Positions 34,651-42,592 of a stretch of DNA of 64,000 nucleotides are shown here, piece after piece. This DNA comes from Geothrix oryzae (GTDB lineage Bacteria; Acidobacteriota; Holophagae; Holophagales; Holophagaceae). Position numbers and translations under genes: made by a program. The first letter of the stretch is position 1. Each line of letters begins with the position of its first letter. The stretch lies in assembly GCF_030295385.1 (NCBI RefSeq), contig NZ_AP027079.1, positions 1,612,001 to 1,676,000 of the forward strand. Direction: 5' to 3'. The notes beneath the pieces were generated by a model. That model worked only from the letters and a program-made list of their open reading frames with translations, did no database searches and was not told where the DNA came from.

Positions 34651-35811
34651 TCACAGGCCTGAGGGGCCGATCCCGGGGCGACCCGCACAGACATCGATCC
34701 ACCCCCCACCGAGGACCTCGCCGTCCTGGTAGAAGACCACGGCCTGTCCGGGGGCGATGGCCCGCTGGGGTTCGGCGAAGGCGACCTTCACCCGGCCATC
34801 CGGCAGGGGGATCACCAGGGCTTCGGCCTCCGGAGAGCGGCTGCGGATGCGGGCCTCACAGGCCAGGGGGCCTTCGGGAGGACCATCCACCCAGGTCAAC
34901 TCGCGGGCCACCAGCTCCTGGCCGAAGAGATCCGCCTCGCCACCCACCCAGACGGTGTTGGTGGCGGGCTCGAGCCGGATCACATAGAGGGGATCGGCGA
35001 AGGCGACGCCCAGCCCCCGGCGCTGCCCGATGGTATGCCGCCAATAGCCGTGGTGCCGGCCCAGCACCCGGCCGTCCAGGTGCCGGATATCTCCGTCTCC
35101 CAGTCCCGGGGCGCGGCCCTCGGCTTCCAGAAAGGCGTCGTAGCGATCCTGGGTCACGAAGCAGATCTCCTGGCTTTCGGGCTTTTCGGCCAGATGGAGG
35201 CCCAGTTCCGCGCCCAACCGCCGCACTTCCGGCTTGGTGAGATGGGCCAGGGGGAAGAGGGTTCGCGCCAGCGTGGCCTGATGGTGGTGGAAGAGAAAAT
35301 AGCTCTGATCCTTGGCTGGATCGGAAGCCTTGCGGAGGTGCCAGCGGCCATCTTCATGGGAAATGGTCGCGTAGTGCCCGGTGGCCACGAAGGCGGCCCC
35401 CAGGGCCTCGGCCCGATCCATCAGAGTGGAGAACTTGAGGTGTTGGTTGCATCGAATGCAAGGACTTGGCGTTTCACCATCCAGGTACCCCTGGATGAAG
35501 CCCTCGATGACGGTGGTCCGGAACCTCTCTTCGAAGTCCATGACATAGTGGGCGAAGCCGAGGTCATATGCCACTCGACGAGCGTCCTGGAAGTCATCAA
35601 GCGTGCAGCATTTCCCTTCCGAAGTTTGAAGCCCTTTCTTGTCGAAGAGCTGCATGGAAATGCCGATGACCTCGTACCCGGCCCGGTGCAGCAGGGCCGC
35701 CATCACGGAGCTGTCCACGCCGCCGGACATGGCCGCCAGCACCCGGTCCCCCCGCCGCAAGGTGGGGTGCTCCAGCAGGGGGGCGAGGGCGGTGTCGAGA
35801 AGGGTGGACAA
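34651..35811 (-). CDS. mnmA: tRNA-specific 2-thiouridylase
   Basis: A 386-residue cytosolic enzyme that thiolates uridine 34 of Lys, Glu and Gln tRNAs. The PP-loop SGGVDSS is at 29-35. The two catalytic cysteines are Cys121 (in SPCIRCN) and Cys217 (in ESQEICFV). ATGHYA and KDQSYFLF are further signatures, and the C-terminal beta-barrel (AIAPGQAVVFYQDGEVLGGGWI) is complete. A tRNA-Gln(TTG), one of its substrates, is encoded in this window. It follows the LptFG gene by 3 nt on the same strand. Confidence 0.96.
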   Translation of the reverse strand: MSTLLDTALAPLLEHPTLRRGDRVLAAMSGGVDSSVMAALLHRAGYEVIGISMQLFDKKGLQTSEGKCCTLDDFQDARRVAYDLGFAHYVMDFEERFRTTVIEGFIQGYLDGETPSPCIRCNQHLKFSTLMDRAEALGAAFVATGHYATISHEDGRWHLRKASDPAKDQSYFLFHHHQATLARTLFPLAHLTKPEVRRLGAELGLHLAEKPESQEICFVTQDRYDAFLEAEGRAPGLGDGDIRHLDGRVLGRHHGYWRHTIGQRRGLGVAFADPLYVIRLEPATNTVWVGGEADLFGQELVARELTWVDGPPEGPLACEARIRSRSPEAEALVIPLPDGRVKVAFAEPQRAIAPGQAVVFYQDGEVLGGGWIDVCAGRPGIGPSGL

Positions 35812-35814
35812 GGC

Positions 35815-38052
35815 TCAGGTTCTCAGGCGCTGAAGGCGCAGCAGGGAGATCGACATCAGGATGAGCAGGGGGGCCAGGACGCCCCAATAGGCGGGGATCT
35901 CGGAGGCCCGGGCCGCGCCGCCGAACAGGGTCTGAAGCCCCAGGAACACCAGCCCGGCCACCAGCCCGGCCCCCAGGGCCTGACCTCGCCCCTGACGCGG
36001 ACCCGGGAAGGCGAAGGACAGCATGGCCAGAACGAGACAGGGGCCGGCCAGCCAACCGAGCAGGCGGCTCCAGAGCATGTAGGACCGCTCGGGGTCCGGC
36101 GCCCACCGCTGCCAATGAAGCAGGTCGAGGGTGCGGGCCTCTTCGGCGGAGGCGGAGGCACGCAGCGCCTGGGTGGGGAAGAGCTGGTCCGCCTCAGGTC
36201 CCTGCACCAGATGGAGGCCACCCCAGGCCAAGGCCTCGGCCCGGGGGGCTCCGAGGCGCCACCTCAGCAGGATGGGAGCCTCTCCCGGAGCCTTCAGGGG
36301 GAAACCCCAGCGTTGATCTGCCTGGAGGTGCCAAAGGACGCCCGTGGCTCCCAAGTGCAGCCAGGGACGCGAAGAAGTTTGGACTTCAGACCGATTGAGA
36401 ATTCGTCGGTAAAGGCTGTTGGCACGGCTCATGGCTGTGGGAGCCACGCCCGCCTGCAGCACCAGGGTCAGAAGGGTGACCACCCCCCAGGCGTAGCGGC
36501 TGCACCAGAGCCAGCGCAGCAGGCTGACGCCCCCAGCCCGGAGGGCCAGCCATTCCCGGCTGAGGGCCGCTTCTGAAAGGGAAAGCAGGCTGCCCAGCAG
36601 GAAGGCCATCGGCAGGGCTATCACCAGAAAGGGAGGGAGATTCCAGAACCAATAGCGAGCAAAGACATGGAGTTGAACACCATTTTTCGACAGGTCGCCG
36701 GCCAGGGTCGCGTACTCCACCAGGAGGTTCAGGACGAGCAGGCTCCCCAGGGCCGAGGCCCAGTTCCGCCACCAGGCGAGGGTGGACCAGTGCCGGAGGA
36801 TCCCGTGCTGGGTGCCCTTCCCGTGAATCCAGCGCAGCAGATGGGCCTTGGTGTCGGCCATGCGGTGCAGGGTTGGAGCCAGATGGGACCGGACGGGCTT
36901 GAACCCGGGGGAGAGTCTCCGCCAAAGGCGATTCGGATGGTGGGGGCGCAGGCGCAGGTGAAGCAGCAGCCAACCGGCAATCAGGAAGGGGAAGGGGAGC
37001 AGCAGCAGGGGGGCAACCGTTTTTAGTTTCTCCGCCAACCACATGTTTTCAAAGTACTTCATCACCAAATAATAAAGCATGATGACCAGCATGCTCTTCA
37101 GGATGGCGCCCCCCCGATAGAACCGGGGGTGCCCGAACCCCAGGCCGATGCCCAGCAGCAGGAGGGCCGCCGCGGCCAGCGGCAAGGTCGTGCGCCGGCA
37201 CACCTCGATGAGCGCCAGGATCCTCCGGTTCTTCGCATCGGGCGTTTCCACTCCCGAGTCCGCCCGCTGCCCCAGTTTCAGCAGGGTGGCGCTGTTCTCG
37301 TAGCGCAGCGGCGTCGGGGGGAGCAGGCGGTTGCCCGAGGGAATGGCGAAGCGGAGGACCTGCTTTTCCTGGTGGAGGTGGAGGACGCTTCCAGCCCCGG
37401 CGGGCTGGTAGAGGACGCCCTGAAGCCCCGAAAGGTGGAGCTGGAGTTCGGAAGAACCATCCGGCTTGGCCTCCAGCGCATAGGTCATGGTGGCGGCGGT
37501 GAGGTGCTGCACCCCCTGGGGAGTCGATTCCATGATGTGGATCTGGCCTTCCGGGGAAACCCAGAAGGCGGAGTGGGGGGCGCTGGGGGGGAACCAGGGC
37601 GGCCCTCCCGGTCGGAGGAACCGGGCCTGGGCCTCTTCGGTCATCCGGACCTGCAGGCCCTGCTGGATCCGGGCCGCAGCGGGAACCAGCAGGTGGGCGT
37701 TGAGCGTGGCCAGGGCCACGAGGGAGATGGCCAGGATCGCCCAGGGGGCGGTCCAGGTGCGCCGGCCGGCGCCAAGTCCCTGGGCCGCGACCAGTTCGGA
37801 ACCTTCCATCAACTGCTGCGTCCCGAGCAGGCCCCCAAGGACCGCCGCCATGGGAAGGACCATTCCCAGGATTTCCGGCAGCGAGGTCAGCAGCAGCGGC
37901 ACGAGCCAACGAAGGGGCGCCCCCTGGGAGAAGATCTGCTTGGCGATGGCCACCATCTCGTTGGCAAGCAGGAGCAACCCATAAAAGAGCAGGGCTCCCA
38001 CGAGAGGCAGGCTCCATCGGCGCAGGATGTATCGGGTCAGTACGGCAGGCAC
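35815..38052 (-). CDS. Fused LptF-LptG lipopolysaccharide export permease
   Basis: A 745-residue inner-membrane protein made of two YjgP/YjgQ units in one chain. Residues 1-368 form a complete LptF-like unit: N-terminal helices (LTRYILRRWSLPLVG), the conserved ELVAAQGLGAG segment, a periplasmic beta-jellyroll (about 130-270) and C-terminal helices. A basic linker at 369-425 leads to a second unit (426-745) with its own LNLLVEYATLAGDL, SREWLALRAGGVSLLR and closing helices. In most bacteria LptF and LptG are separate genes. The start is GTG 38052; an AT-rich promoter-like pocket lies just upstream. Confidence 0.88.
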   Translation of the reverse strand: MPAVLTRYILRRWSLPLVGALLFYGLLLLANEMVAIAKQIFSQGAPLRWLVPLLLTSLPEILGMVLPMAAVLGGLLGTQQLMEGSELVAAQGLGAGRRTWTAPWAILAISLVALATLNAHLLVPAAARIQQGLQVRMTEEAQARFLRPGGPPWFPPSAPHSAFWVSPEGQIHIMESTPQGVQHLTAATMTYALEAKPDGSSELQLHLSGLQGVLYQPAGAGSVLHLHQEKQVLRFAIPSGNRLLPPTPLRYENSATLLKLGQRADSGVETPDAKNRRILALIEVCRRTTLPLAAAALLLLGIGLGFGHPRFYRGGAILKSMLVIMLYYLVMKYFENMWLAEKLKTVAPLLLLPFPFLIAGWLLLHLRLRPHHPNRLWRRLSPGFKPVRSHLAPTLHRMADTKAHLLRWIHGKGTQHGILRHWSTLAWWRNWASALGSLLVLNLLVEYATLAGDLSKNGVQLHVFARYWFWNLPPFLVIALPMAFLLGSLLSLSEAALSREWLALRAGGVSLLRWLWCSRYAWGVVTLLTLVLQAGVAPTAMSRANSLYRRILNRSEVQTSSRPWLHLGATGVLWHLQADQRWGFPLKAPGEAPILLRWRLGAPRAEALAWGGLHLVQGPEADQLFPTQALRASASAEEARTLDLLHWQRWAPDPERSYMLWSRLLGWLAGPCLVLAMLSFAFPGPRQGRGQALGAGLVAGLVFLGLQTLFGGAARASEIPAYWGVLAPLLILMSISLLRLQRLRT

Positions 38053-38126: not shown

Positions 38127-39161
38127 TCACAAGACCTTTGCCGCCAGAAGATCGTGGATGTGGATAACACCGCAGGGGCGCCCTTCCTGCTCGACCATGA
38201 GGAAGGTGATCTTCCGGGCTTCCATGTCGGCGGCGGCTTCGAGGGCCAGGGCCTCGCGACTGATCCGGGCCGGCGTCCGGGTCATGATCTGCTCGGCGTG
38301 CAGTCCGAGCGGGTTCCGACCCTCCCGCTCGGCGGTTTCGAGAGCCCGGCGGATGTCGCCATCGGTGATGACGCCGCTCAGGCTGACGCCCTGCATGACG
38401 CTGGTCATGCCCAATCGCCCTTCGGTCATGGCGCGGAGCACCTCGGTCAGGGTGGCCGAAGGCTCGACCTTGGGCCATGCCGTGTGCATCAAGCTTCCGA
38501 CTTTCATGAGTTTCGCACCAAGACTTCCAGCGGGATGATTCAGTGCGAAGTTGTCCCGGGTGAACCCCCGCCGGTCCATGAGGGTGGCGGCCAGGAGGTC
38601 GCCCCAGACCAACTGGAGGGTGGTGCTCGCCATGGGGGCCAGATCGAGGGGGCACCCCTCTCCCAGGGGCAACCGGTAGAGGAAGGTCCACTGGGCGGCC
38701 TGCCCCAGGCTGCTCTCGGAGCGCGCAGTGATGGCCGCGAGGGGAATCCCCAGGCGCAACAGGCTTGGCAGGAGGCGGACGACCTCCTCGCTTTCGCCGC
38801 TGTTGGAAAGCGCCAGCACCGAATCATCGGGGGTCACCATGCCGAGATCCCCATGCAGGGCTTCGGCAGGATGGAGGAAGAAACTCGGGCATCCGGTCGA
38901 GGCCAGGGTCGCCGCCACCTTCTGGGCCACGAGACCCGACTTGCCCATGCCCGTGAGCACCACGCGTCCGGTCCGGCCCAACACCATCTGGCACCAGGCA
39001 TTCACCTGGGCGGGATCCCAGGTTTCCCGGAGCTCCGCGAGGCCTCCCCGAACCGCGTCCAGCACGGCATGGCCGACTTCCTGCGCCGCGGTGGCCTGGT
39101 TCTCATCCTTCACTGTTCCGACTCCGATGGGATGGTGCAAGGTGTTCATGCTACCAGCCAT
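38127..39161 (-). CDS. kdsD: D-arabinose 5-phosphate isomerase (KpsF/GutQ family)
   Basis: A 344-residue enzyme that turns ribulose 5-phosphate into arabinose 5-phosphate, the first step to KDO of lipopolysaccharide. A sugar-isomerase domain (LTGMGKSGLVAQKVAATLASTG, ALSNSGESEEVVRLLP, GDLLAATLMDRRGFTRDNFALNHPAGSLG) is followed by two CBS domains (SGVITDGDIRRAL; CGVIHIHDLLAAKVL). ATG 39161 has GAGGGG 5 nt upstream and is preferred to ATG 39149. It lies just upstream of lptFG on the same strand, linking KDO synthesis to lipopolysaccharide export, and its 5' end overlaps the divergent Lon-N gene. Confidence 0.92.
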   Translation of the reverse strand: MAGSMNTLHHPIGVGTVKDENQATAAQEVGHAVLDAVRGGLAELRETWDPAQVNAWCQMVLGRTGRVVLTGMGKSGLVAQKVAATLASTGCPSFFLHPAEALHGDLGMVTPDDSVLALSNSGESEEVVRLLPSLLRLGIPLAAITARSESSLGQAAQWTFLYRLPLGEGCPLDLAPMASTTLQLVWGDLLAATLMDRRGFTRDNFALNHPAGSLGAKLMKVGSLMHTAWPKVEPSATLTEVLRAMTEGRLGMTSVMQGVSLSGVITDGDIRRALETAEREGRNPLGLHAEQIMTRTPARISREALALEAAADMEARKITFLMVEQEGRPCGVIHIHDLLAAKVL

Positions 39162-39939: not shown

Positions 39940-40656
39940 CTAGACGATCCACTTCCTCAGTTCGTCTTCCGCGAAGATCAGGTGGGCCAGCATGGCCTTG
40001 GAGGCCATCTGGGGTGAGCCGGATCGGATGGCGGCGAGGATCTCGGAGTGCTGGTCGATGATCTTCTGGGCGTTCTGGATGTTGTCGTGGTACAGCTGGC
40101 GGCGGGCCACGGAGTTGGCCTTGGCGAACTCTTCGGAGACGGTCTTGAACAGCTTGGTCAGAAGGCTGTTGTGGGTGGCCTCGGCGACCGCGTGGTGGAA
40201 GGCGGCATCGAACTCCTCGCCTTTCTCCGGGTCCTGCACATTCAGCCGTTCCTTCATGCTCTCGAGCATGGATTCGATCTGATCCAGCTCCTCGAGGGTG
40301 GCACGCTCCGCGGCGAGGCTGGCGGTGGCGGTCTCGAAGATCCGCCGCATCTCGAACATGTCGAGCAGCGAGCTGCGCTCGACGGCGAGGAACATCGCGA
40401 GCGGCCGGATGATGTCGTCGGTCTCGCTGCTCCGGACGAAGGTGCCTTCCCCAGGGCGGATGTCGATGACGCCGAGCATCTCGAGGGTGCGGATGGCCTC
40501 GCGTACCGAGGCACGGCTGACTTGGAACCGCTCGGCCAGTTCCCGCTCGGCCAGCAGCTTGTCCCCGGGCTTCAGCTTCCCGTCGGTGATGAGCTGTTTG
40601 ATCTGCTCGACGATCTCTTCGTAGAGCCGCTTGGTCTTGATGGGGGTGAATTCCAT
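39940..40656 (-). CDS. lldR: GntR/FadR family regulator, LldR-like
   Basis: A 238-residue transcription factor. The winged helix spans about 8-75 (ELAERFQVSRASVREAIRTLEMLGVIDIRPGEGTFV) and the helical FCD ligand domain about 90-230, with Asp/His residues (FDAAFHHAVAEATHN, DQHSEILAAI) placed to bind a metal and a carboxylate. It is divergent from the lactate permease and next to a matching operator, so control of lactate uptake and oxidation with lactate as inducer is likely. Whether it represses or activates cannot be told. Confidence 0.85.
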   Translation of the reverse strand: MEFTPIKTKRLYEEIVEQIKQLITDGKLKPGDKLLAERELAERFQVSRASVREAIRTLEMLGVIDIRPGEGTFVRSSETDDIIRPLAMFLAVERSSLLDMFEMRRIFETATASLAAERATLEELDQIESMLESMKERLNVQDPEKGEEFDAAFHHAVAEATHNSLLTKLFKTVSEEFAKANSVARRQLYHDNIQNAQKIIDQHSEILAAIRSGSPQMASKAMLAHLIFAEDELRKWIV

Positions 40657-40737
40657 GGGGGTTCGCTTTATGAAAAGGGCTTAAGTCCATAAAAAATAAC
40701 ACATGCAAAGTGTGATCAAAAGCAGAAGCTGTTTTTA

Positions 40738-40748
40738 TGGTCTGACCA
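40738..40748. promoter_or_regulatory. FadR/LldR-type operator
   Basis: TGGTCTGACCA is a palindrome around a central T and fits the FadR-subfamily consensus TNGTNNNACNA at every defined base. It lies in the divergent intergenic region (40657-40831), 83 nt before the permease start and 82 nt before the regulator start. Confidence 0.75.
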
Positions 40749-40831
40749 CTAGACCCATTGTAATCTTCCTCCAGGTTCTTTTCCTAAACTACCTCTTCAT
40801 CCCCTACTCCCCCCACCCAACTGGAGGCTGC

Positions 40832-42592
40832 ATGACCCCGTGGACCCAAGTCTATTCCCCCGTCATGGGGAATATCTTCCTCTCCGCACTGGTGGCAGCT
40901 TTGCCAGTCTTCGTGCTGTTGGGCTTCCTGGCCAAACATGTCAAGGCCCACTACTCGGCCATCCTGGGCCTCCTCACCTGTTACGCGGTCGCCGTGCTGA
41001 TCTACAAGATGCCCGCGGGCATGGCCAGCATGGCCGCCGTGCACGGCGCCCTGTTCGGTCTGATGCCCATCGGCTGGATCGTGCTGAACGCCATCTTCAT
41101 CTACGACATCACCGTGAAATCCGGGGACTTCGAGGTGGTGAAGCACTCCATCGCCGGCCTGGCCGGTGACCGCCGCATCCAGGCCCTGCTGATCGCCTTC
41201 AGCTTCGGCGCCTTCATCGAGGGCGCCGCCGGCTTCGGCACGCCCGTGGCGATCTCCGCGGCGATGCTCATCGGTCTGGGCTTCCGCCCCCTCCAGGCCG
41301 CCGGCCTGGCCCTCATCGGCAACACCGCCCCCGTGGCCTACGGCGCCCTGGGCAGCCCCCTGATCGCCCTCGCCGGCGTGACCGGCCTGCCCCTGGACAT
41401 GCTGAGCGCCGCCGCCGGCCGCATTCTGCCCATCTTCTCGCTGATCGTGCCCTTCTGGATCATTTGGACCATGGCCGGCCGCAAAGCCATGATGGAAGTC
41501 TGGCCGGCCTGCCTCGTGGCCGGTGGCAGCTTCGCCATCACGCAGTTCGCGGTGAGCAACTTCCACGGCCCCTGGCTGGTGGACATCATCGGCGCCATCG
41601 TTTCCATGGTGGCCCTGGTCCTGTTCCTGAAGGTCTGGCAGCCCAAGACCACTTGGCGCTATGAGCACGAGCGTGAAGACGCCCACGCGGTGAAGGTCGA
41701 ACAGCCCGCAGGCAAGGTCGTCAAGGCCTGGCTGCCCTGGGTGTTCCTGTCCCTGTTCGTGTTCGCCTGGGGCACGCCCCAGGTCAAGACCTTCCTGAAC
41801 GGCGGCACCAAGGACAAGCCGAACTTCCTCTACGGCTACACCGTCAAGAACTTCGAGATCCCCCTGCTTCACAAGAATGTGATCAAGGCTCCTCCCGTCG
41901 TGGCCAAGCCTTCCGCTGAAACCGCGGTCTGGACCTTCAACTGGCTCTCCCTGACGGGCACCAGCCTTCTCCTCGCCGGCATTCTCAGTGGTCTCGTCGC
42001 GGGCTTCAGCTTCCTGGAACTCGTCAAGATCTTCGGCAAGACCGTCAATCGCGTGAAAATCTCTCTGCTCACCATCGCCGCCATGCTGGGCCTTGGTTTC
42101 GTCTCCAAGTCCGCGGGCCTGGACGCCACCATGGGCCTCGCCTTCGCCAGCACCGGCGTGCTGTTCCCCTTCTTCAGCGCCATGCTGGGCTGGCTGGGCG
42201 TGGCCCTGACCGGCAGCGACACCTCCGCCAATGTGCTGTTCGGCGGCCTCCAGAAGATCACCGCCCAGCAGCTGGGCCTGAACCCGATCCTCACCGCCGC
42301 GGCCAACACCACCGGCGGCGTCATGGGCAAGATGATCGACGCCCAGAGCCTCGTGGTGGCCTCCGTGGCCACCAACCAGCAGGGCGAGGAGGGCACCATC
42401 CTCCGTTATGTGTTCTTCCACAGTCTGGCCCTGGCGGCCATGGTCGGCGTCGTGGTCTTCCTCTATGCGAAGGTCCTGCCCGCCAACTGGATGCCTCAGC
42501 TTCCTCCCGCTGCGCCTGCGGCGGTGACGGCACCCGCCCCCGTTGCTCCGGCCGCTCCGGCGACCGTGCCTGCCCCTGCCCCGGCCAAGTAG
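40832..42592 (+). CDS. lldP: L-lactate permease
   Basis: A 586-residue LctP/LldP family permease with about 13 membrane helices that imports lactate (and often glycolate) with protons. Conserved stretches include FGAFIEGAAGFGTPVAISAAML, ALIGNTAPVAYGALGSPL and the late NTTGGVMGKMIDAQSLVVA. ATG 40832 has GGAGG at 40823-40827; the in-frame ATG at 40703 would add an unlikely leader. The C-terminus is an Ala/Pro-rich tail (about 25 residues). A terminator follows before the dehydrogenase gene. Confidence 0.95.
   Translation: MTPWTQVYSPVMGNIFLSALVAALPVFVLLGFLAKHVKAHYSAILGLLTCYAVAVLIYKMPAGMASMAAVHGALFGLMPIGWIVLNAIFIYDITVKSGDFEVVKHSIAGLAGDRRIQALLIAFSFGAFIEGAAGFGTPVAISAAMLIGLGFRPLQAAGLALIGNTAPVAYGALGSPLIALAGVTGLPLDMLSAAAGRILPIFSLIVPFWIIWTMAGRKAMMEVWPACLVAGGSFAITQFAVSNFHGPWLVDIIGAIVSMVALVLFLKVWQPKTTWRYEHEREDAHAVKVEQPAGKVVKAWLPWVFLSLFVFAWGTPQVKTFLNGGTKDKPNFLYGYTVKNFEIPLLHKNVIKAPPVVAKPSAETAVWTFNWLSLTGTSLLLAGILSGLVAGFSFLELVKIFGKTVNRVKISLLTIAAMLGLGFVSKSAGLDATMGLAFASTGVLFPFFSAMLGWLGVALTGSDTSANVLFGGLQKITAQQLGLNPILTAAANTTGGVMGKMIDAQSLVVASVATNQQGEEGTILRYVFFHSLALAAMVGVVVFLYAKVLPANWMPQLPPAAPAAVTAPAPVAPAAPATVPAPAPAK

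Follow-up and report, generated by a model that had tools for sequence, protein, structure and literature searches.

LptF and LptG joined in a single chain in Geothrix oryzae and across nearly the whole phylum Acidobacteriota

Does an open reading frame of Geothrix oryzae join LptF and LptG, the two permease subunits of the lipopolysaccharide (LPS) exporter, into one polypeptide, and is such a fusion peculiar to this locus or the property of a larger group? The question was raised by a stretch of 64,000 nucleotides of the G. oryzae genome (hereafter the window), for which a preliminary description had proposed that both subunits are encoded in a single 745-codon frame, with a basic linker of about 55 residues and a kdsD gene directly upstream on the same strand.

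One open frame with two permease units

The gene and its immediate neighbours are arranged as follows:

38127..39161, minus strand: kdsD/kpsF-type arabinose-5-phosphate isomerase (SIS and two CBS domains), upstream neighbour
35815..38052, minus strand: lptFG fusion gene of 745 codons, starting with GTG
36946..38052, minus strand: LptF unit, residues 1–369, with TM1–3, periplasmic domain and TM4–6 (from half scores, hydropathy and tree)
36808..36945, minus strand: linker, residues 370–415, net charge +8 (from profile edges)
35818..36807, minus strand: LptG unit, residues 416–745, with TM7–9, shortened periplasmic domain and TM10–12 (from half scores and hydropathy)
34651..35811, minus strand: mnmA, tRNA 2-thiouridine synthase, downstream neighbour

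The frame is uninterrupted over 756 codons from stop to stop, and a Pfam search of its protein gave PF03739 (LptF_LptG) at 204.4 bits (cut-off 27.9), with four matching stretches that make up two units. G+C content by codon position across the fused frame is 70/49/83%, and dN was lower than dS in the N-terminal unit, the linker and the C-terminal unit when compared with two Geothrix relatives; together, these coding signals, which run through the linker, exclude a missed stop between the halves. The genome is complete (a single contig of 3,265,981 bases), and the PF03739 search found no second LptF/LptG match elsewhere in it, so that the fused copy is the only locus and the separate lptF and lptG that were looked for are absent. 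The proposed fusion in one frame was thus borne out by the open frame, the two PF03739 units, the half scores and the trees, and the kdsD-type gene does lie directly upstream on the same strand, across a gap of 74 bases. The linker is basic as described (9 basic and 1 acidic residues), but its length by profile edges is 46 residues rather than about 55.

Which half corresponds to which subunit was assessed by profile scores and phylogeny. The whole window protein falls below the equivalog cut-offs for both LptF (TIGR04407, 148.7 against 230) and LptG (TIGR04408, 135.6 against 240), as do both of its halves taken separately, with the N half scoring higher as LptF (93.1) than as LptG (68.6) and the C half higher as LptG (81.0) than as LptF (68.5). 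In an acidobacterial relative (L015), the halves pass these curated cut-offs, the N half as LptF (237.4 against 230) and the C half as LptG (247.8 against 240). A tree of 86 rows, comprising halves and split proteins, placed the N halves with Escherichia coli LptF and the C halves on the LptG side, separated by a branch with 99% support. These results support LptF followed by LptG as the order in the fused chain.

Hydropathy, the only basis of this prediction, gave 12 membrane segments, six per unit; each set of six is divided 3+3 by a large loop, which follows TM3 in the first unit and TM9 in the second. This corresponds to the LptB2FG layout, in which each unit has six membrane segments and a periplasmic domain separates TM3 from TM4. 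An AlphaFold2 model built on the single window sequence was not usable (pLDDT 42.7, pTM 0.24). In E. coli both termini of LptF and of LptG are cytoplasmic, and the basic linker would accordingly be expected to lie in the cytoplasm.

Downstream, mnmA probably belongs to the same operon as lptFG; its TTG at 35811 is a mechanically assigned start, and the protein matches its family from residue 23 onwards. Among the Holophagaceae examined, kdsD adjoins the fusion in most and mnmA in several. In one genome of the Holophagaceae (G023) there are two lptFG fusions (L195:5024-7246 and L196:4809-7124), one beside kdsD and the other beside mnmA on the opposite strand.

Distribution within and beyond Acidobacteriota

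A genome search detected PF03739 in 57 of the 61 genomes of the family to which G. oryzae belongs and in 146 of the 149 genomes of the phylum, poorer-scoring acidobacterial genomes being covered by a separate listing. As the frame lengths reported by the search span stop codons and so join neighbouring open reading frames, every counted fusion was re-read from the DNA. Apparent fusions in four genomes (G208, G276, G282 and G297) proved on re-reading to be separate genes. Every intact acidobacterial gene that was re-read is a true single-frame fusion: 91 genes (the window gene and 90 others, with frames of 731–987 residues), which represent 62 of 63 sampled families of the phylum; the 63rd family was represented only by a fragment at a contig end. 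The apparent exceptions among the acidobacterial genomes examined were contig ends or frames overlapping as after a frameshift, and two genomes (G072 and G180) have single-unit extras, each beside a fused copy in the same genome. The single-chain LptFG is therefore real and common to nearly the whole phylum Acidobacteriota. That the fusion is the normal state of the phylum could not have been known from the window sequence alone.

This distribution bears on an earlier survey. According to Leonard et al. 2022 (PMC8871954), Acidobacteria apparently lack lptF and lptG; hits in that survey were screened for their length, for how much of the profile they covered and for copy number, besides other criteria. 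The two genes were probably missed because fused proteins fail length filters, and the fusion offers a plain explanation of the reported absence and would close the gap. A literature search, which covered few subscription journals, found no published description of an LptF-LptG fusion.

Other phyla were sampled through 16S loci, and there the two units lie in separate frames, save for cases in Methylomirabilota and Myxococcota. None of the 55 PF03739-positive genomes of a Desulfobacterota-like sample contained a true fusion once pairs in one frame had been re-read. In Methylomirabilota, real fusions were found in 27 of 49 PF03739-positive genomes, and the others checked keep two genes:

L292-L303, L305 and L311-L326: Methylomirabilota fusions of 740-1145 residues, from G391, G373, G372 and 24 more genomes

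These fusions resemble the acidobacterial ones in the order of F before G and in their basic linker, here of 38–47 residues, and two genomes (G366 and G368) carry two fused copies each. Four of the frames (L294:471-3857, L297:543-3917, L325 and L326) reach 1125–1145 residues, with approximately 345–370 residues ahead of the LptF unit that have no clear family match; the real start of these fusions may lie further inside the frame. In Myxococcota, four genomes have a fused paralogue besides single LptF/G genes (L193, 2088–4511; L308; L309; L310), and most other genomes of that sample gave no PF03739 match. In a Thermotogota genome, a frame of 1183 residues (L194:398-3946, minus strand) combines one LptF/G unit at its N-terminus with approximately 830 residues that match no Pfam family.

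Fusions that arise from a missed stop or frameshift do exist: the 702-residue fusion L304 in Methylomirabilota lacks a linker and has a split near-twin, L331. For the Geothrix gene, such an origin is refuted by the coding signal that continues through the linker and by the recurrence of the same fusion across the 91 checked genes, and we regard the chance of an artefact as negligible.

Origin of the fusion and a trimmed LptG-side domain

The simplest reading of the trees would be one fusion event before Acidobacteriota diversified, because the acidobacterial N halves fall together on one side of a branch (100% support, 96% with more rows) and a single clade agrees with the data for the C halves (AU p 0.6; 90% in a further tree). 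The Methylomirabilota fusions, L304 apart, and the Myxococcota fusions each form clades of their own, in Methylomirabilota for both halves (100%). A shared origin of the acidobacterial and Methylomirabilota fusions was neither demonstrated nor rejected (AU p 0.595 and 0.853), trees that keep the two together even scoring slightly better. Holophagae form long branches, and the depth of all these trees therefore calls for caution.

Within the acidobacterial fusions, the periplasmic loop of the C half measures approximately 124 residues in 20 Holophagaceae genes and that of the N half 154; in 71 genes from the rest of the phylum the corresponding lengths are 163 and 165, so that the LptG-side domain in Holophagaceae is approximately 39 residues shorter. 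In Shigella, mutations do harm whichever of the two periplasmic domains they affect (PMC6744409), which makes this trimming notable, and the trimming suggests that in Holophagaceae LPS may be delivered from, and leave through, the LptF side. A broader scenario, in which the acidobacterial and Methylomirabilota fusions descend from one ancient event and the LptG-side periplasmic domain of Holophagaceae then decayed, with delivery from the LptF side only, seems to us conceivable but rather doubtful. If true, a single ancient fusion would have equipped an entire branch of the diderm bacteria with an LPS exporter built on one chain.

A probable single-chain permease in LPS export

The closest known system is the LptB2FG complex of Enterobacteria, which has the same two six-helix units with periplasmic domains, F before G, and the same coupling glutamates and loop arginines, but in two chains, whereas Geothrix has one chain with a basic linker and, as in other Holophagaceae, a shortened LptG-side domain. 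Structures of the Enterobacterial complex include 5X5Y, 6MIT and 6MHU. The window protein keeps equivalents of two glutamates of the coupling helices, E84(F) and E88(G), which contact LptB (PMC5548808), and of the loop-2 arginines R292(F) and R301(G), which are essential in Shigella (PMC6744409). Diderm Firmicutes (Negativicutes and Halanaerobiales) have a single LptF/G homologue (PMC5007114) and thus resemble Geothrix in having one permease gene per genome, but theirs is one unit, presumably used twice, whereas the Geothrix chain holds two different units.

Our preferred explanation, which we consider very probable, is a single-chain LptF-LptG permease that works with two copies of LptB in ordinary LPS export. 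Both halves, of six helices each, would come from one chain, in which the basic cytoplasmic linker would run from where LptF TM6 ends to where LptG TM1 begins. Two LptB ATPases would dock on the two coupling helices, and the pump would draw LPS sideways from the inner membrane and pass it on to an LptC/LptA-type bridge towards LptD. We infer the topology, the assembly with LptB, LPS as the substrate and the uncut state of the chain.

The linker bears on two alternatives. None of the 91 checked genes lacks it, and its median length there is 49 residues with a median net charge of +7. No other part of the protein is so weakly conserved (48–52% identity against 67–73% in the units), and arginine and lysine are abundant in it. 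Its low conservation and composition would suit a chain that is cut within the linker, leaving a conventional two-protein LptF-LptG heterodimer as the working pump, but in most of the phylum the linker keeps a length near 50 residues, and we consider cleavage unlikely. A linker of 46–49 residues may also be long enough for fused chains to pair with each other, the F unit of one with the G unit of another, so that the linker would have no role in pairing; local concentration should nevertheless favour pairing within the chain, and exchange of this kind appears more improbable still than cleavage. If the single chain stays whole, it is reasonable to expect a covalent 1:1 pairing of LptF and LptG. 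In such a natural single-chain LptFG, expression level cannot mispair the halves, and the protein should help to establish through which half and by which gate LPS passes.

Among the partner proteins, LptB has one match over the cut-off in the genome (341.6 bits against 240), in a locus with the order recJ, a gene for a 581-residue protein, a sortilin-like gene, lptB and rpoN. In comparison with lptC-lptA-lptB-rpoN of E. coli, the protein in the gap between recJ and lptB takes the place of lptC and lptA, and the sortilin-like gene (1095 residues) is inserted between it and lptB:

L226:12350-14095, minus strand: protein of 581 residues that has a hydrophobic stretch at its N-terminus and an OstA-like end (weak match, E 0.0089)

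From its position and features, this protein is a possible combined LptC/LptA candidate. Searches of the genome with PF04453 and PF03968, the main Pfam families for LptD and for LptA/LptC, gave no match, whereas LptD_2 gave 33.7 bits (cut-off 22.5).

That LptA/C and LptD are hard to find, and that Enterobacterial LPS-contact residues are poorly kept, could point to a permease that exports another envelope glycolipid instead of LPS. Several of these contact residues are absent from the window protein, and they are likewise absent from the split genes of other phyla. Against another substrate stand the KDO-pathway isomerase (kdsD type) that adjoins the fusion in most of the Holophagaceae examined, the LptB and LptD_2 matches over cut-off and the status of the fused gene as the sole LptF/G in the genome; we rate this alternative about as low as cleavage, if slightly lower, and favour the single-chain permease acting on LPS.

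At 39940-42592 of the window, two genes are arranged head to head: one encodes a GntR/FCD regulator whose nearest family is LldR, with a score below cut-off, and the other a membrane protein of 629 residues with the look of a lactate permease.
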